The position numbers and the translations under genes were made by a program. Below the pieces are notes generated by a model, which was not told the origin of the DNA, did no database searches, and worked only from the letters and a program-made list of their open reading frames with translations. This document shows, piece after piece, positions 20,951 through 62,471 of a DNA stretch of 64,000 nucleotides (position 1 is its first letter; every line of letters begins with the position of its first letter). The stretch comes from Phytohabitans houttuyneae (GTDB lineage Bacteria > Actinomycetota > Actinomycetes > Mycobacteriales > Micromonosporaceae). The stretch covers positions 186,001 through 250,000 of the forward strand of contig NZ_BLPF01000001.1 of NCBI RefSeq assembly GCF_011764425.1. Direction: 5' to 3'.

Positions 20951-21228
20951 CACAAGATCCAAGCCAAAACAGCAGCGGGCTACCGCGATGTCCGCGGTGG
21001 TCCGGACCGTCGCTCCCGCGGCCTCACCGTCCGCGGCTGGCCCAGCTCACCCCAAAGGCCCGGCTGTCGCGCTGACCGATAGGCTCTCGACCTGGGCGCA
21101 CCGGTGCGCCCGCTGGGCAGTCAACGCTCGTGCCGCGGCCCGCACCGCGGGCCGGGGTGGTGGTGCGACCGCGGAGGGTGAGGCCGCGGGAGCAACGGTC
21201 TGTAGCCCGACGGGCGCCGCGGTAGCTC
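20951..21228. repeat. Intergenic modular repeat, locus A (inverted pair)
   Basis: The block from AGATCCAAG (20954) through CTACCGCGATGTCCGCGG, GGTCCGGACC, TCGCTCCCGCGGCCTCACC and the CCGCGG after it (20979-21040) returns in inverse orientation at 21165-21228 (GCGGAGGGTGAGGCCGCGGG, then AGCAACGGTC and GGTAGCTC). The same block is found at loci near 46.2, 54.5 and 62.2 kb. Between the arms lie about 120 bases with GGCGCACCGGTGCGCC, a short palindrome. No coding frame in this 475-base gap is convincing. Confidence 0.75.
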
Positions 21229-21246
21229 GAAATCTCCTGGAATGGA

Positions 21247-22049
21247 TCAGCAGGCTGGCGTGCCGTCGCAGAGGATGGCGGCGGCGACGCGGGCCAGGCC
21301 GCGCAGGGCGGCGCGGTCCCAGGCCGGCTTGACGAAGAGCTCGGCCAGCAGGTCGCCCTGCCGGACCAGCACGTGGTGGGTGACCTGGCCGCCGTAGTCG
21401 ACGGTGACCAGGAGCGCCTCCTCGCCGGCGAAGTCGCGGTCGGCGATCGAGATCGTCTGCGTGCCGACCGGCTCGCAGGCCGCGACCCGCGCGCGCACCT
21501 CGGCCAGGTAGCGGCTCGCGTCGCCGGGACCGTAGCGGGAGACGGCCTCGGAGAGCCGGTCGTCGGCCTCCGGCGCGCCCCGGAGGAGCGAGCGATCGGC
21601 CCCTCCACCGCCATGACCGGCCGCGGCGCGGAGCGGCAGCCCAGCATCGACGCGCTGAACTCGAACGTCCAGTCCCCGCCGCCGCTCGCCGTCCGGTAGC
21701 CGGGCCCCACGTCCTCGGGGCGCAGGAGCAGCTCGCTGACCGGTGCCCGGTCGCCGCCCGAGACGGTCGCCGGCGGCGCGGTGGTGGGCGACGGCGACGC
21801 CGGTGCCACCGTAGGCGACTGCGGCGCCGGTGCCACGGTGGGCGAGACGCCGGGGTCGGGCGGCGCGCTGTCCAGCCGGGCCGCGGCGACCGTGCCGGTG
21901 GCGCCGGCGATGGTGACCGCCGCGGCGGCCGCGACGAGCGCCACCCGCGTGCGGCGCCGCCGGTGGGCGCGGGCCCGCAGGTCGCCGGCGCTCTGCCACG
22001 AGGTACCGGCGGTGTCGTCGAAGAGCTTCTGGAACAGCTGGTCAGGCAT
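21247..22049 (-). CDS. Membrane protein partner of the SigE-type sigma factor, frameshifted near 21600
   Basis: Starts at ATG 22049, inside the end of the sigma gene (eight-base overlap). About 267 residues if one base is restored. A basic stretch (HRRRRTR) precedes one helix (VALVAAAAAVTIAGATGTVAAA, about residues 35-55), then a Pro/Ser/Thr-rich linker and an outside domain (SELLLRPEDVGPGYRT; after the shift LSEAVSRYGPGDASRY, QTISIADRDFAGEEALL). The frame breaks at GAGGGGCC, where GAGGGGGCC would keep it. No zinc finger is seen. Overlap with the sigma gene suggests a regulatory membrane partner; that is inference. Confidence 0.68.
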
Positions 22050-22539
22050 GCGTGTACTCCCCCGGGAGGTCCCTGCCCAGCAGGGTGGCCAGCGTCCTGC
22101 GGCCGCGGGCCAGCCGCGACTTGACCGTGTTGACCGGCGCGCCCGTCTGCGCCGCCACCTCCGCGACGGGCAGGTCGAGCAGGTGGTGCAGCGCGATGGC
22201 AAGGCGCTCCGGCTCCGGCAGCCGGCGCAGCGCGTCGACGAGCGCCACGGTGTCCTCGCTGGGCGGTGGCGCGGGCGGCTGGGGGCCGTGCCGCTGGTAC
22301 GCCACCATGCGGTTGCGGACCTTGCGCCACCGGTTGACGCACAGGCGGTAGCCGACGGTGCGGACCCACGCCTCCGGGTCGTCGTAGCGGGCGACCGTCG
22401 ACCACCGCTGCCAGGCGCGCAGGAAAGCCTCCTGTGCCGCGTCCTGCGCCTCGGCCCGGTCGCCGCCCATCGCGTACAGGAACGTCACCACCCGGTGCCG
22501 CGTCCCCAGGTAGAAGTCCTCGAAGCCGTCTCCGGCCAC
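22042..22539 (-). CDS. SigE-family ECF sigma factor
   Basis: 165 residues, a typical actinobacterial SigE-family protein: FEDFYLGTRHRVVTFLYAMG start, GDRAEAQDAAQEAFLRAW (region 2.2), EAWVRTVGYRLCVNRWRK (2.3/2.4) and the region 4 helix-turn-helix LPVAEVAAQTGAPVNTVKSR. The first part overlaps the 3-prime end of the uncorrected VOC reading frame by 55 bases, one reason to think the VOC frame is shifted. The gene downstream overlaps by eight bases and encodes its probable membrane partner. Confidence 0.9.
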   Translation of the reverse strand: MAGDGFEDFYLGTRHRVVTFLYAMGGDRAEAQDAAQEAFLRAWQRWSTVARYDDPEAWVRTVGYRLCVNRWRKVRNRMVAYQRHGPQPPAPPPSEDTVALVDALRRLPEPERLAIALHHLLDLPVAEVAAQTGAPVNTVKSRLARGRRTLATLLGRDLPGEYTHA

Positions 22540-22611
22540 CCCGCCCTCCCCTCCGGCGCTGCCTTCGAGGAGAACACACGCGAGCGCGGTGGCCGGTTGC
22601 CGCGGAACCCG

Positions 22612-23018
22612 TCAGGCGCGGGCCGAGATCTGCTGCACCCCCACGAGTTGCCGTCCGGGTCGCTGAAGAACACGAAACCGACGTTGTCCAGCGGGTCGGG
22701 GGTCGGGCTCGGGTTTTCGCCGAGCACCTGGATCTCGCTCACCTCGACGCCCCGCTCGACCAGCTCGGCGCGCGCCTTCTGCAGGTCGGCGACGACCAGC
22801 TGCAGCCCTTTGAGCGAGCCGGGCGGCATCTCCGGCACCGCGCCCTTGCCGATCACGACCGAGCAGCCGGAGCCGGGCGGGGTCAGCTGCACGATCCGCA
22901 CGCTGTCGCCGACGGCGGTGTCGTGGTCGACGTTGAAGCCGAGCTGGTCGGCGTAGAACGCCTTCGCGCGGTCCACATCGGACACCGGCACGACGACGAC
23001 CTCAAGAGTCCAGTTCAT
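22612..23018 (-). CDS. VOC-family protein, probably frameshifted at its C-terminus
   Basis: The N-terminal two thirds read WTLEVVVVPVSDVDRAKAFY, LTPPGSGCSVVIGKG and FVFFSDPDGNSWG, a normal VOC (glyoxalase-like) protein. As sequenced the frame then runs on to 22485, through the start of the sigma gene, with an odd Arg/Pro-rich tail. Adding one G to the run of five at about 22651 gives SWGVQQISARA and a stop at 22612, about 135 residues, the usual length and ending of this group. I give the corrected end. It overlaps the SRPBCC gene by 17 bases and closes the ArsR operon. Confidence 0.75.
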
Positions 23019-23502
23019 CGCTTTTGAATCCTTCCGTGAGTAGCTTGTCCAGGCGGTCGAAGCTCTCTCCGACCCCGCGGGCCATCGGATACCGCAGCAC
23101 GCGGTCGCGCCCCTCGGGCGTCGCGTAGCGCACGGTGCTGGTGAGGTCGGTGCGGCCGGCGCGGCCGGCGAACTCGTGGGTGATCACGGTCTCGCCCGGA
23201 TACGACTGCTCGTCGAAGATCTCGGTGAGCACCAGCCGGGTGTGCGGCTCGACCGCGCGGTAGACGCCGCTCTGCGCCATCCGCTCGCCGCCCGGCCCCT
23301 CCGAGACGAGCCGGTAGGCGCCGCCCACCCGCAGGTCGAGGTCGCAGGAGACGAGGTGCCAGCCCTGCGCGCCGTACCACCGGGGCAGCAGGTCGGGCCG
23401 GGTGAACGCGGCGAAGACGAGCCGCGGTGGCGCGTCGAACGACCGGGTCATGACGATCTCCCGGTCCGTCGGCGTGCTGACCACGACGCCGCGCCCGCTC
23501 AT
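23002..23502 (-). CDS. SRPBCC/AHSA1-domain protein
   Basis: 166 residues. The AHSA1 pattern is clear: REIVMTRSFDAPPRLVFAAF, WYGAQGWHLVSCDLDLRVGG, TEIFDEQSYPGETVITHEF and a C-terminal GVGESFDRLDKLL helix. This family (activator of Hsp90 ATPase-like, small-ligand binding) is very often encoded with an ArsR regulator whose ATG overlaps the stop, exactly as here (ATGA, 23499-23502). Role probably in sensing or detoxifying a small hydrophobic compound; ligand unknown. Confidence 0.9.
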   Translation of the reverse strand: MSGRGVVVSTPTDREIVMTRSFDAPPRLVFAAFTRPDLLPRWYGAQGWHLVSCDLDLRVGGAYRLVSEGPGGERMAQSGVYRAVEPHTRLVLTEIFDEQSYPGETVITHEFAGRAGRTDLTSTVRYATPEGRDRVLRYPMARGVGESFDRLDKLLTEGFKSDELDS

Positions 23503-23831
23503 TCCTCCGCCTCCCGCAGCTCGGCCAGGAGCGCGTCGAGCCGCTGGTAGCTCTCCTCCCAGTAGTCGCGGTAGGCCTCCAGCCAGTCGACCGCCGCCTT
23601 GAGCGGGCGGGCCTCCAGCCGGCAGGGCCGCCGCTGCGCGTCGCGGCCGCGGGAGACGAGCCCCGCGCGCTCCAGCACCTTGAGGTGCTTGGAGATCGCC
23701 GGCTGGCTCATCCGGAACGGTGCGGCGAGCTCGGTGACCGTCGCCTCCCCCGCCGCGAGACGGGCGAGGATCGCCCGGCGGGTCGGGTCGGCGAGGGCCG
23801 AAAACGTGGCATCAAGCAGATCGGTAGCCAT
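23499..23831 (-). CDS. ArsR-family (SdpR-like) transcriptional repressor
   Basis: 110 residues. The winged helix is complete: FSALADPTRRAILARLAAGE, VTELAAPFRMSQPAISKHLK (recognition helix), VLERAGLVSRGRDAQRR (wing). No metal-binding CxC in helix 3, so it is of the non-metal type paired with AHSA1 proteins. First gene of the ArsR-SRPBCC-VOC operon. Two AACC-N4-GGTT palindromes lie directly before its start, an obvious autorepression site. Confidence 0.93.
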   Translation of the reverse strand: MATDLLDATFSALADPTRRAILARLAAGEATVTELAAPFRMSQPAISKHLKVLERAGLVSRGRDAQRRPCRLEARPLKAAVDWLEAYRDYWEESYQRLDALLAELREAEE

Positions 23832-23835
23832 TAAT

Positions 23836-23863
23836 AACCTCTTGGTTTCATAACCTTTTGGTT
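23836..23863. promoter_or_regulatory. Twin palindromic operator of the ArsR gene
   Basis: AACCTCTTGGTT (23836-23847) and AACCTTTTGGTT (23852-23863) are two palindromes 16 bases apart in an AT-rich island, four bases before the arsR start and 22 bases before the next rightward start. A dimer on each site would block both directions. Confidence 0.72.
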
Positions 23864-23884
23864 TTGTACTCGCGAAAAGCCGTC

Positions 23885-24553
23885 ATGTCAAGTGATCCGG
23901 CGCCGCCCGGCGCGCGTACTGATCGCGTGAACGGCGCAGCCGTGTATGTCTTCGGGGTGGTGGCGGCCAACCACCCCGGCCAGCCGGCCGACCTTGTCGG
24001 CCTCGGCGGACCCGACTCGGCCGTGTGGCGGGTGCACGCCGGCGCGACCGCGGCCGTGGTCGCCGAAGCGCCGGGCTGGCTCCGGGCCCGCCCCCGCGAC
24101 CTGCTCGCGCACCAGCTCGTGCTCGACTGCCTGTGGCAGGCCGGGCCGGTGCTGCCCGCGCGGTACGGGATCGTCGCGCCGGACGAGGAGACGCTCCGCG
24201 CCTGGCTGCGCCGGTCGACTCTGCGCCACCTGGACGCACTGGCCCAGGTGGCCGGCCGGGTGGAGATCGATGTGGGGGCCCACCCGGTGGCGGGGGCCGG
24301 TGGTGTGTACGAGGCGCTGCGCCCGCTCGCCGTGCGCGCGTCGGCCGGGCGTTTTCTGGTCGAGGACGGCCAGGCCTTCCTGGTCGAAGAGGACACAGTG
24401 GACACATTCCTCTCCCGGGTGGCGGAGCTCGACCGCGCGCAGGCGGGTCGCGGTCGCATCCGCGCCACCGGACCCCTTCCGCCGTACGCCTTCACGGAGC
24501 CGATCAACGGACTATCCGGTGTGGCCGGTCCCCTGCTCGACCGGTCCGGTTGA
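23885..24553 (+). CDS. Gas-vesicle GvpL/GvpF-type protein, orphan
   Basis: 222 residues from ATG 23885, or 208 from GTG 23927, which better fits the family start (AAVYVFGVV). Family features are VYVFGVVAANHP, the middle LPARYGIVAPDEETLRAWL and the end GRIRATGPLPPYAFTE, the conserved GPWPPYxF-type motif of GvpF/GvpL. Those proteins help nucleate gas vesicles. No gvpA or other gvp gene is nearby, so this copy is either a loner recruited to another role or a far-flung member of a cluster. It is divergent from arsR and sits just before an anti-sigma fusion gene. Confidence 0.78.
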   Translation: MSSDPAPPGARTDRVNGAAVYVFGVVAANHPGQPADLVGLGGPDSAVWRVHAGATAAVVAEAPGWLRARPRDLLAHQLVLDCLWQAGPVLPARYGIVAPDEETLRAWLRRSTLRHLDALAQVAGRVEIDVGAHPVAGAGGVYEALRPLAVRASAGRFLVEDGQAFLVEEDTVDTFLSRVAELDRAQAGRGRIRATGPLPPYAFTEPINGLSGVAGPLLDRSG

Positions 24554-24574
24554 CGGGCGGTACCGTCGGAGGCG

Positions 24575-25537
24575 GTGACCGCGATGGATGTTCATGACGA
24601 GGTGCTCGACCTGATCGGTGCGTGGGCTCTGGACGCCTGTGACCCGGATGAGGCGGCGCGGGTGGACGCGCACCTGAGCGGGTGCGCGACCTGCGCCGCG
24701 GAGGCTCGCCGCCTGCGTTCGGCGGCGTCCTGGCTGGCCGCCGACCGGGTGATCCCGGCGCCACCGGCCCTGCGCCACCGCGTGCTCGCGACCGCGCGGG
24801 CGGCTCGCCCGCCGGCGCTGCTGCGCACGCTCGTCGGGGCGTATGCGGGGCAGGCCGCCCTGCTCGACCGCCTGCTCGGCGCGGTGCGGCAGGACGACTG
24901 GGGCCGGCCCGACCCACGCCACGAGACGGTCGGCGGAGTGGTGGCACACCTGGCGGGCAACGACGCGATGCTCGCGGCCGACCTCGGCCTCCCGGTGGTG
25001 CCGCTCCCCGCCGGCGCGGGGGTGGACGTGCACGCGGCCTGGCGCGAGCAGAGCCGCGTGATCGTCGACGGCCTCGCCGCCCGCGACGGCGAGCTCGACC
25101 GGCGGGTCCGCCTCGCACACACCGGCCCGCCACCGCTGCGGCCGCTGCGCGAGGCCTTGGTGCAGCGGGCGTTCGAGACCTGGATCCACCTCGACGACAT
25201 CGGCGCCGCTGTCGGCCGGGGCGCCACCACACCCCCGCCCGAGCAGGTCCGCCGCATCGTCGACCTGGCCGCCGAGCTGCTGCCCGGCGCGATCACCGGT
25301 GGCGACGAGGGCGCCGAGGTGGGCACCGTCCGGCTCGTCCTCGAAGGCACCGGCGGTGGCGAGTGGACACTCCCTTGTGGACCCGGTGACCACACGACGA
25401 TCTACGCCGACGCCGTCGAGTTCACCCGGCTGGTGGCCAACCGCCGCGGTCCCGACTCGCTCGTCCACTCCACCACCGGCAGCCCGGCCGTCTCGACCCG
25501 CGTCCTGCACGTCGCCGCGACGCTCGGATGTGACTGA
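24575..25537 (+). CDS. Anti-sigma factor: ZAS zinc domain fused to maleylpyruvate-isomerase-like domain
   Basis: 320 residues from GTG 24575, eight bases after TACCGT (24561-24566). Residues 1-75 are a ZAS anti-sigma domain with His33-x3-Cys37-x2-Cys40. Residues 85-320 are a mycothiol-dependent maleylpyruvate isomerase (DinB/MDMPI) domain that keeps all three metal ligands of that family: His125 (VVAHLAGND), Glu201 and His205 (FETWIHLDD). There is no transmembrane helix, so this is a cytoplasmic anti-sigma factor. Its partner is the sigma factor that starts two bases after its stop. A thiol or mycothiol input is a fair inference. Confidence 0.87.
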   Translation: MTAMDVHDEVLDLIGAWALDACDPDEAARVDAHLSGCATCAAEARRLRSAASWLAADRVIPAPPALRHRVLATARAARPPALLRTLVGAYAGQAALLDRLLGAVRQDDWGRPDPRHETVGGVVAHLAGNDAMLAADLGLPVVPLPAGAGVDVHAAWREQSRVIVDGLAARDGELDRRVRLAHTGPPPLRPLREALVQRAFETWIHLDDIGAAVGRGATTPPPEQVRRIVDLAAELLPGAITGGDEGAEVGTVRLVLEGTGGGEWTLPCGPGDHTTIYADAVEFTRLVANRRGPDSLVHSTTGSPAVSTRVLHVAATLGCD

Positions 25538-25539
25538 GC

Positions 25540-26109
25540 GTGCCGCCGGACGAGAGCGACGCGCGGCTGCGGGAGCGGCTCGTCGCCGGTGACGGCGACG
25601 CGCTCGCCGAGGCGTACGACCGGTGGTCCGGTCTGATCCACACGCTCGCCCTGCGGATCACCGACGACGCGGCGGCGGCCGAGGACATCACGCAGGACGT
25701 GTTCGTGGGGCTGTGGCAGCGGCCGGAGGCGTTCGACCCGGAGCGCGGGGCGCTGCGCACCTGGCTGTGCATGCTGGCGCGCAGCCGCGCCCTCGACTGG
25801 ACCCGGCGGCGGGAGGCGCGCGCCCGGTACCACGCGGCGGCCGGCGCCTCGGCGGCGGCCTCGCCGGCCTACGGCGACATCGACGACGCGGTCATCTGGC
25901 ACACCGAGACGAAGGTCGTGCGGGAGGCCGTGCAGGCGCTGCCCGACCTGCAACGGCAGGCGGTCCATTTGGCGTACTACCGGGGTCACACGTACCGCCA
26001 GGTGGCGCTGGAGCTGAACATCCCGGAGGGCACCGCCAAGTCGCGGCTGCGGCTCGCGCTGGCCAACATCGCCGACCGCCTCGCCGCGGAGGGCATCCTC
26101 GAGCGCTGA
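25540..26109 (+). CDS. ECF sigma factor (SigK/SigJ-like)
   Basis: 189 residues from a GTG. Region 2 is LALRITDDAAAAEDITQDVF with LRTWLCMLARSRALDWTRR; region 4 is HTYRQVALELNIPEGTAKSR. It is placed directly after its presumed anti-sigma gene, with two bases between, so the anti-sigma protein is made first. No extra C-terminal SnoaL-type domain. It would be released when the ZAS-MDMPI partner loses zinc or binds a thiol ligand; that is inferred from the partner. Confidence 0.88.
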   Translation: MPPDESDARLRERLVAGDGDALAEAYDRWSGLIHTLALRITDDAAAAEDITQDVFVGLWQRPEAFDPERGALRTWLCMLARSRALDWTRRREARARYHAAAGASAAASPAYGDIDDAVIWHTETKVVREAVQALPDLQRQAVHLAYYRGHTYRQVALELNIPEGTAKSRLRLALANIADRLAAEGILER

Positions 26110-26260
26110 GAGTTGGTAGGCTGCGGGGCAGCGCGTTGGGGATCGCGCCGCGACTCGCCGGAAGGCTTGAAGCCATCCCCGTGCTTTCGATGCCGCGTGA
26201 CGGACGCCGAAGCTCTGAGCCGCCCGTGCGAGTCCGGGCCATTGGAGCGAGGTGCTTTCC

Positions 26261-27445: not shown

Positions 27446-27448
27446 GCG

Positions 27449-27473
27449 GTCCGGCAGCGCACGGCGGCCGGAC
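27449..27473 (+). terminator. Possible terminator hairpin
   Basis: GTCCGGC and GCCGGAC pair around an 11-base loop just after the stop at 27445. Stem of seven, no T run. Confidence 0.45.
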
Positions 27474-27535
27474 GGCAGCGATCCGGCAGCGGCGGCGCGC
27501 ATCGTCCTCCCGTACCGACGACCAGGGAGGGAACG

Positions 27536-28570: not shown

Positions 28571-28616
28571 AAAAGTGGTGGGGGTGGGCGGGCGTGCCCG
28601 CGTAGCATCGGCTCGC

Positions 28617-29402
28617 GTGTCGATCGTCGAGCGGCTGCGCGCCGCGGGGTGCGTCTTCGCCGAAGACGAGGCCCGCCTGCTCACCGCCGCCGCGGACACG
28701 CCCGCCGCCCTCTCCGCGCTGGTCGAGCGCCGGGTGGCCGGCGAGCCGCTGGAGCACCTGCTGGGCTGGGCGGAGTTCTGCGGCTTGCGGGTCGCGGTCG
28801 ATCCCGGCGTCTTCGTGCCGCGGCGGCGCACCGCGCTGCTGGTCCACGAGGCGGTGGCCCTGCTGGCCACCCGCCCGTCCCGGGCGACGGTCGTCGACAT
28901 GTGCTGCGGTTCCGGCGCGGTGGGCGCCGCGGTGGCCGCGGCCGCGGGCCCGGTCGCCCTCCACGCCACCGACGTGGACCCCGCGGCGGTACGGTGCGCG
29001 CGGCGCAACCTCGCCCCGGCCGGCGGCCACGCCTACCTGGGCGACCTCGACGCGCCGCTGCCGCCGGCCCTGCGCGGCCGGGTCGACGTGCTGGTGGCGA
29101 ACGTCCCGTACGTCCCCACGGCGGAGCTGTCACGCATGCCGCCCGAGGCGCGCTACCACGAGCCGAGGGTCGCGCTGGACGGCGGCTCGGACGGCCTGGA
29201 CGTGCTGCGCCGGGTGGCCGCCACCGCCCCGGTCTGGCTGGCGCCCGGCGGCCACCTGCTGATCGAGACGAGCGACCGCCAGGCGGCCGGCGCGGCGTCC
29301 GCATTCACCGCGGCCGGCCTCACCCCACGCGTGATCACCGACAACGCCCTAGGCGCCACGGCCGTGGTAGGCACGTTCGACGTCCGCGCGGTTCAGCGTT
29401 AG
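28617..29402 (+). CDS. HemK/PrmC-like protein N5-glutamine methyltransferase
   Basis: 261 residues from GTG 28617, eight bases after TAGCAT (28603-28608). The N-terminal helical domain ends in LLGWAEFCGLRVAVDPGVFV then PRR, as in HemK; the SAM-binding motif is VVDMCCGSGAVGAAVA and the second acidic loop ATDVDPAAV. The catalytic NPPY tetrapeptide is NVPY (VLVANVPYVPT), a change found in a subgroup annotated as putative glutamine methyltransferases. It may modify a target other than release factor. Confidence 0.85.
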   Translation: MSIVERLRAAGCVFAEDEARLLTAAADTPAALSALVERRVAGEPLEHLLGWAEFCGLRVAVDPGVFVPRRRTALLVHEAVALLATRPSRATVVDMCCGSGAVGAAVAAAAGPVALHATDVDPAAVRCARRNLAPAGGHAYLGDLDAPLPPALRGRVDVLVANVPYVPTAELSRMPPEARYHEPRVALDGGSDGLDVLRRVAATAPVWLAPGGHLLIETSDRQAAGAASAFTAAGLTPRVITDNALGATAVVGTFDVRAVQR

Positions 29403-29406
29403 CGCG

Positions 29407-29468
29407 GTTGATCAGGGAGTTGGTCGGGCGGGTTGGCGGCGCGGCGCTCCACCGGCTCCCTGATCAAC
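29407..29468. terminator. Long inverted repeat between convergent genes
   Basis: TTGATCAGGGAG (29408-29419) and CTCCCTGATCAA (29456-29467) form a perfect 12-base stem, 13 with flanking G and C, around 36 bases that can fold further. The right arm holds the stop codon of the acetyltransferase gene. A shared terminator is likely. Confidence 0.6.
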
Positions 29469-29997: not shown

Positions 29998-30008
29998 CGC
30001 ACGCGGCG

Positions 30009-43440: not shown

Positions 43441-43598
43441 TTCGGCACCGTCGCCGCGGTCTGTGACTGCCAACCGGCTGCAGGCGGTATGCGCGTCGAG
43501 ATCTTGGTGAGTTAGCGCGCCATTTCGACGCTAACTTGCCAAGATCTGCCGGAGCGGGCTCCTGGGTTGAGCTGGGCGACCGCAGAGGGTGAGGCGGC
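43441..43598. repeat. Intergenic modular repeat, locus B, with hairpin module
   Basis: 158 bases that align over their whole length with 54564-54720: TTCGGCACCGTCGCCGCGG, TGTGACTGCC, then the hairpin AGATCTTGG-TG-AGTTAGCG (43499-43517), an 11-base loop, CGCTAACT-TG-CCAAGATCT (43529-43547), and the tail GCCGGAGCGGGCTCCTGGGT and GAGGGTGAGGCGGC. I see no gene in the rest of the gap (43389-43440 and 43599-43830). Confidence 0.78.
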
Positions 43599-46021: not shown

Positions 46022-46159
46022 CATTTCAAAGGCGGATTTGCCCCCGCCCGCCTCACCTGCGGGCCGTTTGCTCCCGCGGGCTGCGCGGAGGCCGGCGGCG
46101 AGCTGGCGCTCGCCGACTTCCCCGGCCTCCGCTGCCGGGTCCGCGGGTCAAGCCCGACC

Positions 46160-46220
46160 CCCGCGGCGGGTGAGGCCGCGGGAGCAACGGTCCGGACCAC
46201 GGCGGACGTCGCGGTAGCTC
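46160..46220 (-). repeat. Intergenic modular repeat, locus C (single copy)
   Basis: Read on the minus strand: GAGCTACCGCGACGTCCGCC, GTGGTCCGGACCGTTGCTCC, CGCGGCCTCACCCGCCGCGG. It is almost identical to 54460-54519. It ends four bases before the stop of the neighbouring gene at 46225. The preceding part of the gap, 46036-46090, holds a weaker copy (TTTGCTCCCGCGGGCTGCG). Confidence 0.75.
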
Positions 46221-46224
46221 AAAA

Positions 46225-50711: not shown

Positions 50712-50721
50712 GAGGCACGTG

Positions 50722-52861: not shown

Positions 52862-54367
52862 ATGTCTCAGCAGACCGCCACGGGGGCGGACACGAATGCC
52901 GGCGGGCAGGTGGTCGATCCGAGGCGCTGGTTCGCGCTGCTGGTCATCGCCATCGCGCAGCTGATGGTGGTGCTCGACGGCACGATCGTCAACATCGCGA
53001 TGCCCTCGGCACAGGCCGACCTGGGCATCTCCGACGCCAACCGGCAGTGGATCGTCACGGCGTACACGCTCGCCTTTGGTGGTCTCCTGCTCCTCGGCGG
53101 CCGGATCGCCGACTACGTGGGCCGCCGCCGGATCTTCCTCATCGGCCTCATCGGCTTCGCCTTCGCCTCGGCGCTCGGCGGCATCGCCACCAACGCGGGC
53201 ACCCTCTTCGCCGCGCGCGCTCTCCAGGGCGTGTTCGGCGCGCTGCTCGCACCGGCGGCGCTCTCGCTGATCACGGTCACGTTCACCGACGTCAAGGACC
53301 GCGCGAAGGCGTTCGGCGTCTTCGGCGCGATCTCCGGCGTGGGCGCCACGATCGGCCTGATCCTGGGCGGCGTGCTCACCGAGTACACGACGTGGCGCTG
53401 GTGCCTCCTCGTGAACATCCCGATCGCGCTCGCCGCCTTCTTCCTGGCGCTGCCGATCGTGCGGGAGAGCAAGGCGCACGGCAACACGCGGTACGACATC
53501 CCCGGCACCGTCCTGGCGACCGGCGGTCTCGTCGCGCTCGTGTACGCGTTCACCAAGGCGGCCGAGGACGGCTGGTCCTCCGCGGTCACGCTGGTGTTCT
53601 TCGCGATCGCGGCGGTGCTGCTGGTGGGCTTCGTGGTGTTCGAGTCGCGCACGGCCAACCCGCTGCTCCCGCTCCGCGTGGTGCTGCACCGCAACCGCGG
53701 CGGCTCGTTCCTGGTCTCGGTGCTCCTGGGCGCCGGCATGATGGGCATGTTCCTGTTCATGACGTACTACTTCCAGGGCACACTCCAGTACTCCCCGCTG
53801 CGCAGCGGCGTCGCGTACCTGCCGTTCTCGCTGGCCCTGATCGTCACCGCGATGGTGGCGAGCTCGGTCCTGCCGAAGGTCGGCCCGCGCGCGATGATGA
53901 CGGTCGGCGGCCTGCTCGCCACCGCCGGCATGGTGTGGCTGACCCAGCTGCGCATCGACTCGTCGTACCTCACGCTCATGCTCCCCGCCCTCGTCATCAT
54001 GGCGGTCGGCATGGCGCTGGTCTTCGTGCCGCTGGGCAACACGTCGCTGACCGGCGTCGACGACCACGACGCCGGCGTGGCCAGCGCGATGGTCAACACC
54101 ACCCAGCAGATCGGCGGCTCGCTCGGCGTGGCGCTGCTCAACACGGTGTTCACGACCGCGGTGGCGAACTACATCGCCGACAACGGCCCGGCTTCGGCCC
54201 CGCTGGGCGCGGTGCACGGCTACAACGTGGCCTTCACCGTGAGCGCGGTGCTGCTGGCCGCGTCGACGCTGGCGACGTTCCTGCTGATCCGCAACACCCG
54301 GCAGACCACCACCCGCGACGGCGAGAGCGAGGAAGCGCCGGCGCTGGCCCCGGTCCACGTGGGCTGA
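52862..54367 (+). CDS. DHA2-family MFS drug transporter (14 helices)
   Basis: 501 residues, AAAGG nine bases before the ATG. About 14 hydrophobic segments. Motif D/E and C are visible: MVVLDGTIVNIAMPSAQADL (TM1, the DHA2 LDxTIVNVALP motif), GGLLLLGGRIADYVGRRRIF (loop 2-3 motif A), LGGVLTEYTTWRWCLLVNIP (motif C). A proton-driven exporter of drugs or metabolites. No regulator is adjacent; the 131-base leader contains TTTAGCGCTTAA (52754-52765), a near palindrome that could be an operator. A terminator follows. Confidence 0.93.
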   Translation: MSQQTATGADTNAGGQVVDPRRWFALLVIAIAQLMVVLDGTIVNIAMPSAQADLGISDANRQWIVTAYTLAFGGLLLLGGRIADYVGRRRIFLIGLIGFAFASALGGIATNAGTLFAARALQGVFGALLAPAALSLITVTFTDVKDRAKAFGVFGAISGVGATIGLILGGVLTEYTTWRWCLLVNIPIALAAFFLALPIVRESKAHGNTRYDIPGTVLATGGLVALVYAFTKAAEDGWSSAVTLVFFAIAAVLLVGFVVFESRTANPLLPLRVVLHRNRGGSFLVSVLLGAGMMGMFLFMTYYFQGTLQYSPLRSGVAYLPFSLALIVTAMVASSVLPKVGPRAMMTVGGLLATAGMVWLTQLRIDSSYLTLMLPALVIMAVGMALVFVPLGNTSLTGVDDHDAGVASAMVNTTQQIGGSLGVALLNTVFTTAVANYIADNGPASAPLGAVHGYNVAFTVSAVLLAASTLATFLLIRNTRQTTTRDGESEEAPALAPVHVG

Positions 54368-54382
54368 CGCACCATTGAGATC

Positions 54383-54413
54383 GAGTGGGCGGGTCCGGGC
54401 GGCCCGCCCACTC
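54383..54413 (+). terminator. Terminator after the DHA2 transporter gene
   Basis: GAGTGGGCGGG and CCCGCCCACTC pair perfectly (11 bases) around a nine-base loop and are followed by CTTTCGTT. Confidence 0.8.
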
Positions 54414-54429
54414 CTTTCGTTCCAAAGCC

Positions 54430-54720
54430 TCCAACAGATCCAACCCGAACCAGACGCGAGCTACCGCGACGTCCGCCGTGGTCCGGACCGTTGCTCCCGC
54501 GGCCTCACCCTCCGCGGTGGATCAAGATCCACCTGATCTCCCCTCCCGTGCTTCTGCAGAGCTTTCGGCGCCGCCGTCGCGGTCCGTGACTGCCGATCAG
54601 GTGCGGGCGGTGCGGCTTCGAGATCTTGGTGAGTTGGCGCGTTATTTCGACGCCAACTTGCCAAGATCTGCCGGAGCCGGCTCCTGGGTTGAGCTGGGCG
54701 ACCGCGGAGGGTGAGGCGGC
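54430..54720. repeat. Intergenic modular repeat, locus D (both modules)
   Basis: Holds the first module (54460-54519: GCTACCGCGACGTCCGCCG, GTGGTCCGGACCGTTGCTCC, CGCGGCCTCACC) and, 45 bases on, the hairpin module (54564-54720) that matches locus B along 157 bases. The hairpin reads AGATCTTGG-TG-AGTTGGCG (54621-54639), an 11-base loop, CGCCAACT-TG-CCAAGATCT (54651-54669). Upstream AGATCCAACCCGAACC repeats the flank of locus A. The gap is 364 bases between convergent genes and has no gene. Confidence 0.8.
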
Positions 54721-54731
54721 AACCGTGCCTT

Positions 54732-56171: not shown

Positions 56172-56219
56172 CGGCGGCTCCCTCCGGTCACGCCCCGCTG
56201 TTACCCAGTCTGGACGATC

Positions 56220-57338
56220 TCACCCCGCCGGACCCCGCGAACCGGCCCGCGCGGCCCGCCCGGTCACCAACCCGGCGCCGTCAGGCTCAGCGCGCCGCGC
56301 GATCTGCTGCGCCACCACCTCCGCGTCGCGGCCCACACCGCCGACGAGCATCGAGCTGAACGCGCGTTGGAAGGCCAACCCCACGTAGTACAGGCCCGGC
56401 TCGTCCTCCGGCCACCCGTCCTCCCCCAGCGCCGGCTCGTCGATCCAGCTGAAGTCCTGCCGGAAGCCGGTGCACCACACCACGTTGGCGACGTCGAGCA
56501 CCCGCCCGTCGGCGAGGACCGGCTTCCCGTCGCGTACCCCCGTCATGCGGTCGGTGATCCGCTCCACGCCGGCGGCGGCCAGGTCGGCGCCCTTGACCCG
56601 CAGCAGCGGGCCGCCGTGCGCGCGGACGTGGCCGCGCATCTTGCGGCCGACGGGGGTACGGACGTTGAGCACCCGCGTCCACATCAGCCACAGCAGCGGG
56701 AAGATCGCGTGGGCCATGCGCCCCTCGATCGCGAACGGGATCTGCCCCGTGTCCCGCCCGCACAGGTAGGTGCGGTGGGCGGCGGCCACCTCGTACGCGA
56801 CGTCCGCGCCCGAGTGCGACGCGCCGACCACGAGCACCGGTCCCTCGGCGAGTTGCGCCGGGTTGCGGTACCCGCTGGAGTGCAGCTGCCGGATCTCCGG
56901 CCCGAGGTCGGCCGCGAAGTCGGGCACCCGCGGGGCCCGCCCGAAGGTGCCGGTGGCGACGACGACGTTGTCGGCCTCGTACCGCCGTTCGCCCGCGACC
57001 ACCACCCGCCGCTCGCCGTCGCGGAGCAGGCGGTCGACGCGCACGCCGCCGCGCACCGGCAGTTCGAAGTGCGCGGCGTACGCGGCCAGGTACGCGGCCA
57101 CCTCGTCCTTGGTCGGAAACGACCAGGCCGGCGCGGGGAACGGCATGCCGGGCAGGCCGTCGTAGCGGGCCGGGCTGTAGAGGCGCAGCGAGTCCCAGTG
57201 GCTGCGCCAGTTGTCGCCGACGCGGGCGTTGCCGTCGAGGATCACGAACGGCCGCCCCCGCCGCGCCAGGTGGTACCCGGTGCTCAGCCCCGCCTGGCCG
57301 CCCCCGATGATCACGGTTTCGATGCGTTCGGTTTCCAT
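56220..57338 (-). CDS. FAD/NAD(P)H-dependent monooxygenase (FMO-like)
   Basis: 372 residues. The FAD site is TVIIGGGQAGLSTGYHLARR, the NADPH site VLVVGASHSGADVAYEVAAA, and between them VVVATGTFGRAPRVPDFAAD. The end YYVGLAFQRAFSSMLVGGVG is typical of the YczJ/CzcO group of flavin monooxygenases. The FMO fingerprint F-x-G-x3-H-x3 is not seen in full. It starts ten bases after the stop of the LuxR gene. Confidence 0.9.
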   Translation of the reverse strand: METERIETVIIGGGQAGLSTGYHLARRGRPFVILDGNARVGDNWRSHWDSLRLYSPARYDGLPGMPFPAPAWSFPTKDEVAAYLAAYAAHFELPVRGGVRVDRLLRDGERRVVVAGERRYEADNVVVATGTFGRAPRVPDFAADLGPEIRQLHSSGYRNPAQLAEGPVLVVGASHSGADVAYEVAAAHRTYLCGRDTGQIPFAIEGRMAHAIFPLLWLMWTRVLNVRTPVGRKMRGHVRAHGGPLLRVKGADLAAAGVERITDRMTGVRDGKPVLADGRVLDVANVVWCTGFRQDFSWIDEPALGEDGWPEDEPGLYYVGLAFQRAFSSMLVGGVGRDAEVVAQQIARRAEPDGAGLVTGRAARAGSRGPAG

Positions 57339-57348
57339 ACCCCGGACG

Positions 57349-59037
57349 CTACGAAGGCGGCGGCGACCCCGCTTCGGGCGAAACCCGCATCCCGGTGGCG
57401 CCGGGCATGGGTATTTCTGTGTAGGCCAGGCCGTGCGCGAACGCGTACGCCGCGGCCGCCGTGCGCGAGCCCACGCCCAGCTTGGTGAAGATGTTGCTGA
57501 GGTGGCGGGCGACCGTCTTCTCGCTCAGCACCAGCTCGCGCGCGATCGCGTGGTTGGAGAGGCCGGCCGCGACGAGCCCGAGCACCTCGACCTCGCGCGG
57601 GCTGAGGCCGCCGCGCGCCCGCGCGGTGATCCGGGCGCGGTCGGGTGCGGCCCCCAGCCGCGTGAACACCTCGCACGCCGCGTCCAGCTCCATCGCCGCG
57701 GCGTCCTCGTCGCCGAGCGCGCGGCACGCGTGTGCGACCAGGACGCGGGCCCGCGCGGCCTCGTAGGGGGCGTCCAGGTCGCGCCAGATCCGCCACGCGG
57801 GGCGAGCCGCCGCCAGCGCCGCCTCCGGGTCACCCTCCGCGAGGGCGACGGCCGCCAAAGCGCATCCGGTACGGGCATGCAGTGCCCGCCGCCCGAACGC
57901 CTCGGCGATCTCCGCCAACTCGGCCGCACACTCCCGCGCCGCCGCCACGTCACCGGCGGCGAGCGTGATCTCGACGGCCGCCGCGAGCAGGCGGGCGCGC
58001 ATCAGCCGGTCGGGCGTCTCGGCGAGTGCCCGCCGGATCGCGGCCGCCGCGGCGTCCACCCGGCCCTGTGCCAGCCGCAGCAGCGCGAAGCCGGGCTGGG
58101 TGTCCGCGCCGTACCGGCTGGCCTGCCGGAACGCCTCCTCCGCCGGGCCCGCCTCGCCCCGCAGCCGGTGGATCTCGCCGAGCTGGTAGAACGCGCCGCC
58201 GGCCAGCATCTCGCCGAAGCCCTGGGTGAGCCGTTCGCACGCGGTGCGCGCCTGGCGGGCCGCGTCCGGCCAGTCGCCGGTGAGCTGGAGCAGCTCGGAG
58301 CGGTGGATGAGGCAGATGCCGGAGTACCCGCCGTCGAAGCGGGGCTGCCCGTCCACCCACTCGTTGAGCGCCAACGTCCACTCCCGGGCGCGCGGCACCT
58401 CGTGCAGGTCGTGGCAGACCGCGATGAAGCCGCAGTAGACGTGCCCGGCGATGCGCGGGCTCGCCTCACCAGCGGCGAGCGCCACCATGGCCTCGTCGAG
58501 CAGCGCGAGGCCCTCGTCGACCCGCTCCTGCCGCACCCGCGCCATCCCCTGCAGGTGGGTGGCCGCGGTGACGAGGTCGGGGTCGCCGCAGCGCTCGGCA
58601 AGCTCGCGGGCCCGCGTGGCGGTCGCGTACGCACCGTCGGGGTCGCCGCCCCGCAGCCGCCCCTCGGCCTCGGGCAGCAGCAGGTAGCCGCGCTGGGCGC
58701 AGTCCGGCTCGCCGTCGGCCAGCCGCGCGGCGCGGGCGAGCCACCCGCCCGCGTACGAGAACTCGCCGCGCATGGCGAGCGTCTCGTGCAGCCAGTACGC
58801 GCAGCGCAGCGCGCCGGCGATGTCGCCGGATTCGACGCGCGCCCGGTACTCCCGCTCGAGCAGCCGCACCGCCTCCTCGCCGCGGCCGAGGAGCTGGCTC
58901 GCCTCACCGAAGCGCGCCAGGTCGTCGATGCCCAGCGGCGCGGCCGCGTCGGCGGCGGCGTAGTGGACACACGTGTCCGCCCACGCCCGGCGGCTGTGGC
59001 ACTCCCGGGCACGGGTCAGCGTCGCGGACACCTCCAC
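57349..59037 (-). CDS. LuxR-family regulator with TPR-like sensor region
   Basis: 562 residues from GTG 59037, seven bases after TAGGCT (59050-59045 on the minus strand). Residues 1-480 are alpha-helical repeats of TPR type ([60 protein letters not shown]). The C-terminal helix-turn-helix is [20 protein letters not shown], then [20 protein letters not shown]. There is no ATPase domain, unlike MalT/LAL regulators of this length. It leads the monooxygenase/exporter operon and probably controls it. Confidence 0.9.
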
Positions 59038-59317
59038 ACCGCCGAGCCTAGGCCTTGTCTCAGAAGATTTGTCGGTGCGAGCCGGAGTCCAGGTGTCATC
59101 AGGTGGTGGCGGGCGCAAGGTCGCATACCGGTGTTGAATGCGGACTTACGCCCGACGCCGCATGGCGGCGCCTGGCGCCAGATGGCGGCGCCTGGGCCCG
59201 GCGCAGCCCGGCAAGGATTTCGAGACCGGGTCTGGGACCCGTCGATACGGTGTCGACGCGTCGTCTATCGGCACGGGGTGTGCTGTGAAACGTTCCAGGC
59301 TCGGGAGGTGTTGGGGG

Positions 59318-59923
59318 ATGACGGCGGACAGCGCCGCGGTGGAGGCGGACCACCGGTTCGCGCGTGCGGTCACGGAGACGTTCGCACCACCCGTCGTGGC
59401 GGCCGCGATGGTGGTGGCCTTCGCGCTGACCGGCGCGCCCTCGCTGCGCACGGGCGTGGGCTGGGCACTGCTCGCGGTGCTGTTCACGGCCGCGGTGCCG
59501 TACGCGATCGTGTGGGCCGGCGTCCGCCGCGGCCACCTGACCGACCACCACATCGGCGTACGCGAGCAGCGCCGCACCCCCCTCCTGCTCGGCCTGGCCT
59601 CGTGCCTGGCCGGCATCGGCGCGCTAGCGCTGCTCGGCGCACCCCGCGCGCTGACCGCCGCGGTGGTCGTCCTCTTCACGACCGGCGTGGCCATCACCGC
59701 GGTCAACCAACTCTGGAAGCTGAGCGCCCACGCCGCGGTCGCGGCCGCGTCGGCGGAGACCCTGGTGATCGCGTTCGGCCAGTGGATGACGCCGCTCTTC
59801 CTGGTGGTCGCCCTGGTCGCGTGGTCCCGCGTCCGCCTGGGCGACCACTCCCCCGGTCAGGTGGTGGCGGGCGCGATCGCAGGCGTCGCCCTGGCCCCTC
59901 CGGTGTACGTGCTGGTCGCCTGA
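59318..59923 (+). CDS. PAP2-like membrane protein
   Basis: 201 residues; GGGAGG and GGGGG precede the ATG. Five or six helices (VVAAAMVVAFALTGAPSL, VGWALLAVLFTAAVPYAIVW, LLLGLASCLAGIGALALLGA, LFLVVALVAWSRV). The phosphatase motif is reduced: KLSAHAAVAA matches the PSGH region without Pro-Ser-Gly, while SRVRLGDHSPGQVVAGAIAG keeps the Arg-x6-His part. It is likely a lipid phosphatase relative with altered chemistry. Upstream, TGAAACGTTCCA (59285-59296) is a near palindrome of LacI type. The 277-base gap (59041-59317) otherwise holds only a repeated ATGGCGGCGCCTGG (59162, 59182). Confidence 0.78.
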   Translation: MTADSAAVEADHRFARAVTETFAPPVVAAAMVVAFALTGAPSLRTGVGWALLAVLFTAAVPYAIVWAGVRRGHLTDHHIGVREQRRTPLLLGLASCLAGIGALALLGAPRALTAAVVVLFTTGVAITAVNQLWKLSAHAAVAAASAETLVIAFGQWMTPLFLVVALVAWSRVRLGDHSPGQVVAGAIAGVALAPPVYVLVA

Positions 59924-59993
59924 GGCGGGGCGCCGCCCGCAACCGGCCTGGACCGCCGGCCCTCAGGTCCGTGACGGCCCACCGAGCGCGCGT

Positions 59994-60041
59994 GATCGTG
60001 GACGTCCGGTGCCCCTCGCAGGGCAGCGAACGTCCACGATC
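59994..60041. terminator. Inverted repeat, probable terminator
   Basis: GATCGTGGACGT and ACGTCCACGATC form a perfect 12-base stem around 24 bases that include GCCC/GGGC. It lies 70 bases after the PAP2-like gene. I see no gene or further signal in the remaining 300 bases up to 60341. Confidence 0.5.
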
Positions 60042-60341
60042 CGCCGGCGGCCGTTCCGGTCCATCCCCGCCAGTGCACGCCCTCCCCGGCCGCGGTCCGG
60101 GCTGCCGCTGACGCGGCCCCACCCACCGCGGGGGCTCAAACGACCGGCCGAGCGAGCGACGTACCGCCACAGGGGACGGAGATCTGGCCGCTGAAACGCA
60201 CCCCCAAGCGGCGGGAATTCGCATCCGGTTCGAGGCGGATCCGTTCGGCCGAGAGCCCGGTCCACGCGGCGATCCGCGACATGCAGGCCGCCGGGATCGC
60301 ACGCCAGGCGACCGCGGAGGGCGAGACAGGCCAACCGAATG

Positions 60342-61565
60342 TCAGTACGCCTCGCCGACGGCTTCCTCGGGGGTGCGCTGGGCGCGCAAGGCCCGCCGGT
60401 TCCACACGACGCGCTCGCCGTGGCCGGCGGCCATGATGTGGCCGAAGGCCAGGAAGACCAGCACGCCCGCGCCGAGCACGGCCGTCGCCACCCAGTACGG
60501 CAGGGCTAGCGAGTGCTCGGCCAGCTTGCCCGCGATGATCGGCGCGGGCGCCGCCGCGCCCCAGCGCACGAGGTTGAACGCGCCGGTCGCGACCCGGCGG
60601 TCGCCGCCGCCCAGGGCCAGGGCTAGGTCGGTGAGGTTGGCGTTGGCCAGGCCCATGAAAAGGCCGGAGGCGACGAGCACGACGATCGACTCGGCGAGGC
60701 CGCCCGAGGTGGCCAGCAGCACCAGGCACACCAGCAGCCCCGCGATCGCCACCCCCACCGTCTGCACCGCGCCGATCCGGTGCGCCAGGCGGTGGCCGAC
60801 CACCAGGATGCCGGCCGCCAGGCCCAGACCCCAGCCGGTGAACGCGAGGCCCAGCGGGATCACGTCGATGCCGAGGAAGAGCGGCGTGTAGCCGAGGATC
60901 ACGAAGAACACGAAGTTGTACGCCGCCGTCACCGCGCACAGCGCCACGAACGCGGGCCTCCGGTAGGCGCGGCCGATCTCGGCGACCCGTACCGCCGGCT
61001 GCCTGGTCGTGGGCTCCCGCAGCGCGCCGGCCGCCACCGCGAGCGCCACCAGCATGAACATCCCGCACACGAAGAACGGCAGCCGCCAGCTCACCTCGCC
61101 CAGCAGCCCACCGAGCAGCGGACCGACCGCGAAGCCGAGGCCCAGCGCGGTCTCGAAGAGGCCGACGACCCACTCGCGGTCGTTGGCGAGAGCGACGAGC
61201 ACGACCATCGCGGTGGCGAAGAAGAGCGCGTTGCCCAGGCCCCACACGCCGCGCAGGACGGAGAGCTGCGTGATGTTGCGGCTGAACGAGGCGAGGATCG
61301 CCGCGACGCCCACCACGCCGACGCCGGTGACGAGCACCCGCTTGTACCCGAACCGCCCGGTGGCCAGCACGGCCGGGATCATGCCGATGGCCATGACCGC
61401 GATGTACGCCGTGAAGAGCAGCTCCACCTGCCACGCCGTTACCCCGATCGCCTCGCCGATGGCCGGCAGGATCGGGTCGACCACGGCGATGCCCGCGATC
61501 GCGAGGAACGCCACCAGCGTGGTGGCGTAGATGGCCTTGCGGTTGGGTTCGTCGCGCCGCGCCAC
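60342..61565 (-). CDS. MFS transporter (12 helices, DHA1-type)
   Basis: 407 residues from GTG 61565, which has GGAGG eight bases ahead; a GTG at 61574 sits too close to it. VVDPILPAIGEAIGVTAWQV (TM1-2), VLATGRFGYKRVLVTGVGVV (motif A, with GRFGYKR), VGPLLGGLLGEVSWRLPFFV (motif C) and a second half with FTGWGLGLAAGILVVGHRLA. Substrate unknown; the divergent MarR gene and shared operator suggest export of the compound that MarR senses. Confidence 0.92.
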   Translation of the reverse strand: MARRDEPNRKAIYATTLVAFLAIAGIAVVDPILPAIGEAIGVTAWQVELLFTAYIAVMAIGMIPAVLATGRFGYKRVLVTGVGVVGVAAILASFSRNITQLSVLRGVWGLGNALFFATAMVVLVALANDREWVVGLFETALGLGFAVGPLLGGLLGEVSWRLPFFVCGMFMLVALAVAAGALREPTTRQPAVRVAEIGRAYRRPAFVALCAVTAAYNFVFFVILGYTPLFLGIDVIPLGLAFTGWGLGLAAGILVVGHRLAHRIGAVQTVGVAIAGLLVCLVLLATSGGLAESIVVLVASGLFMGLANANLTDLALALGGGDRRVATGAFNLVRWGAAAPAPIIAGKLAEHSLALPYWVATAVLGAGVLVFLAFGHIMAAGHGERVVWNRRALRAQRTPEEAVGEAY

Positions 61566-61588
61566 GCGCGCCACCTCCGAGCTGAACT

Positions 61589-61626
61589 AGCTGTATCTTA
61601 CAGGTATCTCCCTGTATCATACAGCT
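61589..61626. promoter_or_regulatory. Nested palindromic operator between MFS and MarR genes
   Basis: An outer palindrome AGCTGTAT (61589-61596) / ATACAGCT (61619-61626) encloses an inner one, TACAGG (61599-61604) / CCTGTA (61611-61616), in an AT-rich island. It ends at the base before the marR ATG and starts 23 bases before the transporter GTG. A MarR dimer pair would block both genes. Confidence 0.75.
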
Positions 61627-62085
61627 ATGACCGCAGGTGAGACCCCGCTCGAACGGATCGAGACGCAGATCGCACTCCTCATGCGCCTCGGCGAGACGAC
61701 CCGGCGAGCCACGCCGGTCGCGGCACACCGGGCACTGGACCGCGCGGCCTACGTGATCCTGCGCCACCTCGCCGAAGCCGGCCCGCAAAACGTCTCGGCG
61801 CTCGCCGACCGGCTGGGCCTGGACGGCTCGACGGTCACCCGGCAGGTCTCCGCCATGCAGCGGGACGGCCTCGTGGCCCGCCAGGCCGACCCGCGCGACG
61901 GCCGGGGCACGGTGATCGCACCGACGGGTTCGGGACTGCGGCGGATGTCCGCCGTGCGCGCGGCCCGCACCGAGCTTTACGGGCGCGTCCTGTCCGCCTG
62001 GACCGAGGCAGACCGCGAGCAGCTCGCCGACCTGATGGGCCGCCTCATCGACGCCCTGGAAGCCCATCGCCGCAACACGCCCTAG
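61627..62085 (+). CDS. MarR-family transcriptional repressor
   Basis: 152 residues. Recognition region VSALADRLGLDGSTVTRQVS, wing DPRDGRGTVIAPT and dimer helices at both ends (TQIALLMRLGETTRRATPVA, REQLADLMGRLIDALEAHRR). The ATG comes directly after the operator palindrome; no ribosome site is left except CAGCT, so the message may be leaderless or depend on the operator region. Divergent from the MFS gene it probably controls. A terminator and a repeat follow. Confidence 0.92.
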   Translation: MTAGETPLERIETQIALLMRLGETTRRATPVAAHRALDRAAYVILRHLAEAGPQNVSALADRLGLDGSTVTRQVSAMQRDGLVARQADPRDGRGTVIAPTGSGLRRMSAVRAARTELYGRVLSAWTEADREQLADLMGRLIDALEAHRRNTP

Positions 62086-62119
62086 GGTCTACCTGGAGAC
62101 CTTCGCGGTCAGGGTGAGC

Positions 62120-62147
62120 CTCGTTTGGAGACTTCAATCCAAACGAG
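62120..62147 (+). terminator. Terminator after the marR gene
   Basis: CTCGTTTGGA and TCCAAACGAG form a perfect ten-base stem with an eight-base loop. Confidence 0.7.
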
Positions 62148-62153
62148 ATGTGA

Positions 62154-62471
62154 GCTGCCGCGATGTGCGTCGTGGTCCGGACCGTTGCTCCCGCGGCCTC
62201 ACCGTCCGCGGTCGCCAGGCTCAGCCCCAAGACCCGCTCCTGCTCGGCAGTCACGGACCGATGCGGCACCGTCGGGGAGAGCTTTACAACCGTCAGCGAC
62301 AATCCGTTGGCCGCAAGCGGCGCCGCAGTCGAGCCCGAGTTAACGGCGAGCTGCCGCTTCACCCGCGGTTGCCGCTCACCCTCCGCGGTCGCCCAGCTCA
62401 ACCCAGGAGCCCGCTCCGGGGTGAGCTCGCCCACCGCGGAGGGTGAGGCCGCGGGAGCCGCGGTGGGCCCG
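62154..62471. repeat. Intergenic modular repeat, locus E (rearranged)
   Basis: First module at 62154-62213 (GCTGCCGCGATGTGCGTCG, GTGGTCCGGACCGTTGCTCC, CGCGGCCTCACC). Then CGGCAGTCACGGACCG (62248-62263), which is the reverse complement of part of locus D (54580-54593). Then CGCTCACCCTCCGCGG, TCGCCCAGCTCAACCCAGGA and GCCCGCTCCGG (62368-62417), the tail of the hairpin module in inverse orientation, and last an inverted first-module part (62433-62471). The AGATCTTGG hairpin itself is missing. 402-base gap, no gene. Confidence 0.7.

Follow-up and report, generated by a model that had tools for sequence, protein, structure and literature searches.

Repetitive extragenic palindromes (REPs) and similar repeats are best known from Proteobacteria (PMC3733652). 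The main text of that paper places GTAG- and CGTC-tagged REPs near the 3′ ends of genes, between convergent or unidirectional genes, in pairs of opposite orientation and with termini that can supply stop codons. It also describes CGTC-REPs that lack a dedicated transposase and neisserial dRS3 repeats clustered in mosaic intergenic regions, and it makes no mention of Actinobacteria, Streptomyces, Micromonospora, Salinispora or Actinosynnema. In this study, we analysed a window of 64,000 nucleotides from the actinobacterium Phytohabitans houttuyneae (family Micromonosporaceae; contig NZ_BLPF01000001.1, positions 186,001 to 250,000), in which a 60-nt block, T, and a hairpin module, H, recur between convergent genes. 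The genome of P. houttuyneae NBRC 108639 comprises 11.34 Mb in five scaffolds (PMC7692728). A literature search limited to PMC listings turned up nothing on the T repeat.

An original prediction, made from the letters of the window alone, had reported a modular repeat family at five intergenic sites, comprising a 60-base block at five positions with a further partial copy, a second module shared by two sites, and pieces of both modules in inverted order at the fifth; it suggested a non-autonomous mobile family or a chromosomal structural element. The repeats are confirmed here, and their interpretation is partly supported. T and H probably represent an orphan, non-autonomous mobile repeat family that resembles REPs and bacterial interspersed mosaic elements (BIMEs) and serves as a landing pad for other small elements. 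This reading is based on the many copies, the species differences at some junctions, the lineage-specific bursts and a patchiness unlike that of an essential host site.

Copy number and differences between species

The search of the whole 11.3-Mb genome with T (at most two mismatches) gave 356 matches against 12 for a reversed control; H gave 123 against 0, and a 29-nt pattern of the T core 324 against 0. The alternative considered in the original prediction, that the genome holds no more copies, is thereby excluded. Plus- and minus-strand copies of T are interspersed on contig C1 among the 100 matches listed there. A strand polarity of T considered for P. flavus (G003) was rejected on whole-genome strand counts of 242 and 222.

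The junctions of P. houttuyneae were paired with those of its relatives by their flanking genes. Among 149 pairings, in which overlapping loci cause some sites to be counted repeatedly, T was found only in P. houttuyneae in ten, only in the relative in seven, in both in nine and in neither in 123. When the distinct junctions with T were counted by hand, leaving out the pairing of a P. houttuyneae locus with itself, the corresponding figures were two, five and six of 13, and one of the five junctions assigned to the relative only (L209:18536) carries a degenerate T copy in P. houttuyneae. At the window junction 54367/54732 the distance from stop to stop is 364 bp in P. houttuyneae and 47, 90 and 330 bp in P. 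maris, P. flavus and P. suffuscus, respectively; T is absent from all three relatives, and a GC-rich hairpin belonging to the gene is kept in all of them. In place of T and H, the P. suffuscus orthologue (L239) contains an infill of short tandem repeats of local type (CCCGAACCCGGCACGGCG units). A gene pair that overlaps by 4 bp in P. houttuyneae corresponds in P. flavus to a junction with a 694-bp block containing T. Elsewhere T lies 19 nt past the same stop codon in P. houttuyneae, P. suffuscus and P. flavus, with different DNA beyond it, which indicates that copies can persist.

Nearly all H copies belong to P. houttuyneae, where H underwent a burst: the 123 copies there compare with 0, 0, 0, 1 and 6 in five congeners. 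H is related to T, whose inner half forms its far end, and a good number of H copies run on into what appears to be a decayed outer half. H may thus have been derived from T.

Placement relative to genes

Genes were called with a home-made caller trained on codon usage, and short or edge-lying copies were dropped in several of the analyses. Forty evenly spaced 20-kb stretches of P. houttuyneae, one of which (L196) lies inside the window, contained T at 12 of 114 convergent, seven of 425 tandem and none of 115 divergent junctions; 20 of the 24 T matches fell in called junctions and the other four had no called gene alongside. A second detection over 844 kb, with the window included and the overlapping L196 left out, found T in 15/126 convergent, 8/445 tandem and 0/126 divergent junctions. 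The distribution in 400 kb of P. flavus was 9/59, 7/200 and 1/61, and one copy was intragenic by the gene calls. A repeat search independent of T, from which L196 was again omitted, detected repeats of at least 30 bp in 27/55 convergent, 20/218 tandem and 1/115 divergent regions of at least 60 bp, and the single divergent case resembles a local periodic array.

In cases in which the outer-side gene has its end at T, the repeat starts within 100 nt of the stop codon in 19 of 22 cases in P. houttuyneae and 12 of 13 in P. flavus; in three and five further cases, respectively, the outer-side gene starts at T. Within the P. houttuyneae sample, 14 of 20 T copies have the closest gene behind them and point away from it. 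The claim that the repeats occur only at gene ends nearly holds but is not exact, as T between tandem genes also faces away from a gene start. Such tandem copies are in sense orientation in eight cases and antisense in seven (8/12 and 12/24 sense in another count), so T is not tied to the direction of transcription. A role for T as a sense-orientation terminator is disfavoured, as antisense copies are about equally frequent.

The stop codons of T-adjacent genes in Phytohabitans lie in CTAG more often than those of other genes (57/172 versus 201/1922; odds ratio 4.2, P = 4e-14). In other genera the stops next to T are mainly in CTGA (22/39), and CTAG as a general target of T was rejected since it fits part of the Phytohabitans copies and not those of other genera. 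CTAG itself is strongly depleted in the 844-kb sample: base composition predicts 2208 occurrences and 257 are present, 73 of which are no more than 4 nt from a called stop codon. The proximity of T to stop codons may reflect tolerance, targeting or both.

Paired copies and nested elements

T pairs were taken over all loci collected, many of which had been selected for the presence of T or H. Among 54 adjacent pairs less than 2.5 kb apart, 46 face inward, five are both on the minus strand (−−), two face outward (−+) and one is ++. When inward neighbours at any distance are considered (n = 49), 46 span 113–1849 bp, and their interiors are mostly unrelated. Five of the 21 inward pairs longer than 900 bp hold called genes, none of which reads as a transposase. 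Single T copies are common. P. suffuscus has three T..T′ copies of 268–269 bp that are 91–93% identical, but their similarity extends past T by 50 and 63 nt in one pair and by about 400 nt on one side in another, so the copies do not end at T.

T is itself entered by other mini-elements. An element designated the c-element, with ends CAATGCCACTCA..., is 105–339 bp long (mostly 166–168 bp) and is located in the T palindrome GGTCCRGACC. In 12 copies read, a T half is present on at least one side in all 12 and on both sides in ten, and the palindrome is found on both sides in 11; eight of these copies came from loci picked for T, so the specificity for T is overstated. As a chance control, 304 of 20,000 random 15-nt windows match the palindrome equally loosely. 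Some copies have the identical palindrome variant on the left and right, and the nested insertions carry direct repeats. These direct repeats are a target duplication of the second element inside T; the target duplication that the original prediction had proposed to look for was not found for T itself. Matches to pieces of the c-element numbered 41 in P. suffuscus, 22 in P. flavus and 17 in P. maris (40 candidates scored in each) and were absent from the other three of the six Phytohabitans genomes. Likewise, a 52-nt module is inserted at position 37 of T in loci of P. houttuyneae, P. maris and P. flavus.

A different guest element was noted by eye in a P. flavus block (L311) at the junction orthologous to P. 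houttuyneae L195:13645. It has ends CCTGTCGCA..., lies in the loop of another hairpin and is flanked by an apparent 8-bp direct repeat, CTCCAGAG.

Distribution and hairpin structure

The 29-nt core pattern, allowing three mismatches, was surveyed in 300 Micromonosporaceae genomes, in which the control gave two matches in total. The core occurs in 56 of them, with bursts: the six Phytohabitans genomes hold 7, 49, 100, 324, 359 and 432 cores, and all six genomes of genus g19 hold 24–61. Among 67 genomes of the sister genus g30, four have 27–85 cores, 15 have one to four and 48 have none. A search with a 66-nt sequence, positive in 34 of 200 genomes with an E-value cutoff of 1e-4, gave weak matches in some pattern-negative genomes (e.g. 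G190, G195, G217 and G011), so that the scoring of a genome as having none depends on stringency. Outside the family the core is at control level: a class-wide set of 394 genomes, three of them from this family, yielded one match in each of three genomes besides P. houttuyneae, against two control matches.

In 50 further loci from other genera, duplicates included, 23 cores are convergent, 25 tandem, three divergent, five at an edge and one intragenic; an earlier set of 15 matches from other genera contained four, six, two, three and none, respectively. One genome of genus g18 (G022) has an inward T pair around approximately 1.2 kb in which no gene was called; an adjacent open reading frame (ORF) was read as an ABC ATPase.

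The T unit contains a short imperfect hairpin with a CCRG loop within the 60-nt end sequence. For genus g30, 25 copies from 12 genomes were aligned after the exclusion of seven of 32 candidates (L338, one of the two L339 rows, L340, L344, L349, L359 and L360) because their interior differed, an exclusion that favours a common structure. The aligned copies fold into four helices with 94.0% of cells paired (78.0% in shuffled and at most 50.9% in slid alignments), 65 cells with double changes (22.2 shuffled, at most 35 slid) and a covariation score of 0.426 (0.167 shuffled, at most 0.198 slid). The double changes reside in the three stems outside the core, whose own hairpin varies on one side at a time. 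Across 191 distinct cores from Phytohabitans, 81.2% of the cells of the CCRG hairpin are paired, but sliding by +3 still gives 70.6% and mutual information shows no paired change, so the structure is only suggested there. T as a structured RNA in Phytohabitans was rejected for want of covariation.

Features of the window

Direct and inverted repeats detected in the window correspond to the predicted blocks. Exact positions of T were set by a loose scan with the 60-nt consensus and are given in Table 1 with the other features. Four copies have at most six mismatches, one has eight and one half copy has 20; the copies of H number two.

Table 1. Repeat and hairpin features located in the window; T copies are scored as mismatches to the consensus
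Feature	Positions	Strand	Remarks
T copy at left boundary of 252-bp T..T′ block in a convergent junction	20977-21036	+	4/60 mismatches
T copy, right end of 252-bp block begun at 20977	21169-21228	-	8/60 mismatches; inverted repeat pair with left copy
H element, far end is inner half of inverted T	43441-43598	+	Hairpin arms 43499-43519/43529-43547
188-nt repeat holding T 46161-46220 and a second, T-like far end	46034-46221		
T copy directly abutting end of minus-strand gene	46161-46220	-	2/60 mismatches
GC-rich hairpin 3′ of left gene; repeats start beyond it	54384-54412	+	Kept in three congeners (sequence comparison)
T copy	54458-54517	+	1/60 mismatches
H element	54564-54720	+	Hairpin arms 54621-54641/54651-54669
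T copy	62152-62211	+	6/60 mismatches
Inverted piece of H end	62375-62419	-	98% complementary to 43549-43593 and 54671-54715
Half-intact T, inner half retained, outer half gone	62434-62493	-	20/60 mismatches; direct and inverted repeat matches

The flanking genes of the five sites are 20771+/21247−, 42878+/43831−, 46021+/46225−, 54367+/54732− and 62085+/62488−. All five are convergent, so the predicted convergent placement stands and its count of four of five does not. The ungapped part of the two H copies (43493–43598 and 54615–54720) is 93% identical, which bears out the pairing of the second module, and the inverted pieces at the fifth site are indeed present, that of T being recognizable over 62434–62485. 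The loose scan also returned 60072–60131 (+) in a gene region, with 22 mismatches, which is taken as a chance match. Further copies of the 188-nt repeat were seen, among the matches listed, in G000, G002, G003, G004 and G005. No structured RNA of Rfam matched the window at the gathering threshold, and elsewhere only sub-threshold matches to MIR9666 appeared, in one of 12 loci. The segment 54430–54730 had no match in a plasmid collection.

Two other repeats were noted in the window. One, at 59045–59239, has many copies in P. suffuscus and P. maris among the matches listed and no Rfam match; it occupies the divergent spacer between genes 59037− and 59318+, in contrast to T, which avoids such spacers. 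The other, at 29402–29463, lies in a convergent junction and belongs to a different hairpin family (TTGATCAGGGAGTTGG ... CTCCCTGATCAA), relatives of which occur at further junctions of the P. houttuyneae sample.

Discussion

As a mobile family, T would settle mostly just 3′ of stop codons and frequently in pairs that face inward around non-coding DNA. Insertions into genes and promoters would be selected against, perhaps alongside some target preference near stops, and copies would be left between convergent or tandem genes. A resident T could then act as a landing pad for mini-elements that enter its palindrome or the adjacent sequence, and blocks would lose parts by deletion to give shuffled mosaics. 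T itself would presumably move by way of a putative trans-acting enzyme. The copy number, the presence or absence of T at individual junctions, the H burst and the patchiness in the family favour the mobile half of the original prediction, which the missing target duplication leaves unproven.

Several results weigh against mobility. There is no direct observation of T moving, flanking direct repeats show no excess in 37 T pairs, and no autonomous relative with T ends was found; between the T pairs examined, no ORF was read as a transposase, by eye and without a family search. The REP-associated tyrosine transposase (RAYT), a Y1 transposase (PF01797), was not detected in any of the six Phytohabitans genomes, with control genomes positive, so mobilization by RAYT is not supported there. 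The one positive among the 12 genomes searched was G130, in which a loose core-like stretch (L294) in an ORF beside the Y1 gene was taken as chance. When 935 proteins encoded near T were clustered, no transposase was recognized by eye in the 12 largest clusters. In the g30 alignment, two of the five covariation measures show no excess over the shuffles, namely the pairs with double changes (10 versus 8.3 shuffled; 51 of 500 shuffles reach this value) and the further pair types (18 versus 17.3; 217 of 500). Finally, the T core is conserved between genera, and its retention 19 nt after one stop in three species is what a host site might show.

The last two points, together with the location near stops in other genera and the mobilizer missing from the PF01797 search and the protein clusters, are those that suit a site for a nucleoid, topoisomerase or insulator-type host protein, selected at gene ends and with the mosaics as a secondary effect. 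Such a site is nevertheless unlikely, and a host function of T is disfavoured: junction occupancy varies between species, copy number ranges from 7 to 432 within Phytohabitans, and 48 of 67 g30 genomes lack the core at the stringency used, while four hold 27–85 copies. The chromosomal structural element of the original prediction is not supported, with the core missing at this stringency from most sampled relatives and the two orientations intermixed among the matches listed on C1. Improbable to a still greater degree is that T forms the terminal inverted repeats found in classical miniature inverted-repeat transposable elements (MITEs) whose DDE transposase targets CTAG at stop codons. Inward pairing, the 268–269-bp copies, the CTAG bias of T-adjacent stops with CTAG rare across the genome sample, and the outer ends of several flank families, which start near CTAG, would all fit; but outer flanks fall into families in only 27/68 P. 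houttuyneae and 36/181 other cases, no duplication signal is seen, CTGA prevails elsewhere and the homology of the 268-bp copies runs on beyond T. The least probable alternative is that T acts as RNA 3′ of genes, as a terminator or 3′-end stabilizer. Gene-end and convergent placement and the covarying g30 hairpins agree with this role, whereas the balanced orientation in tandem pairs, the separate conserved GC-rich hairpin that precedes the repeats at 54367, the lack of an Rfam match in the window and the lack of covariation in Phytohabitans T speak against it.

A wider proposal extends the preferred reading of T as a mobile, REP-like family. The repeats could form an undescribed Micromonosporaceae superfamily of mobile hairpin elements that share the CCRG-loop core across genera, carry lineage-specific covarying stems and are placed directly after stop codons by an enzyme reading folded nucleic acid. 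We regard this as possible but doubtful; with no known tag and no RAYT, such a superfamily would need another enzyme for its spread. If the REP-like reading is true, large GC-rich actinobacterial genomes possess a REP-like class with a core that crosses genera yet is abundant only in patches, and some of the lengthy non-coding sequence that separates convergent genes here would consist of nested mini-elements. The coexistence of T-rich and T-free genomes within one genus allows a search for a co-occurring gene, which would make the old question of what moves RAYT-less REPs testable.

Comparison with known repeat systems

Within the main text of PMC3733652, the CGTC-REPs and dRS3 repeats are the closest counterparts of T: they are short 3′-end hairpins in convergent and unidirectional placement, form opposed pairs, have no dedicated transposase and build mosaics with other families. 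They differ in their unpaired CGTC tag, since T positions 13–16 read YGYC (C13 in 48% and T15 in 72% of P. houttuyneae copies), and the T core, hosted by Actinobacteria, is not among the families described in that text. The GTAG-REPs and BIMEs served by RAYT agree with T in placement, pairing, mosaic make-up and stop-supplying termini. Unlike T, they carry GTAG before the palindrome, where the T strand has the reverse complement CTAC, which is not kept in other genera, and such REPtron systems have a Y1 transposase in the genome, whereas none was detected in Phytohabitans (0/6). Having neither the GTAG nor the CGTC tag, T is filed in neither REP superfamily. Like MITEs, T blocks are small, non-coding and numerous with inward ends, and one 268-bp P. 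suffuscus unit has T at both ends; unlike them, their interiors are mostly unrelated, single copies are common and neither duplication nor an autonomous relative was found. The REPs that serve as insertion sequence targets (PMC1525189) parallel T in that another mobile element inserts into them at a set position; in T, however, the guest is a non-coding element of approximately 167 bp, and T as its host does not belong to the REPs described so far.

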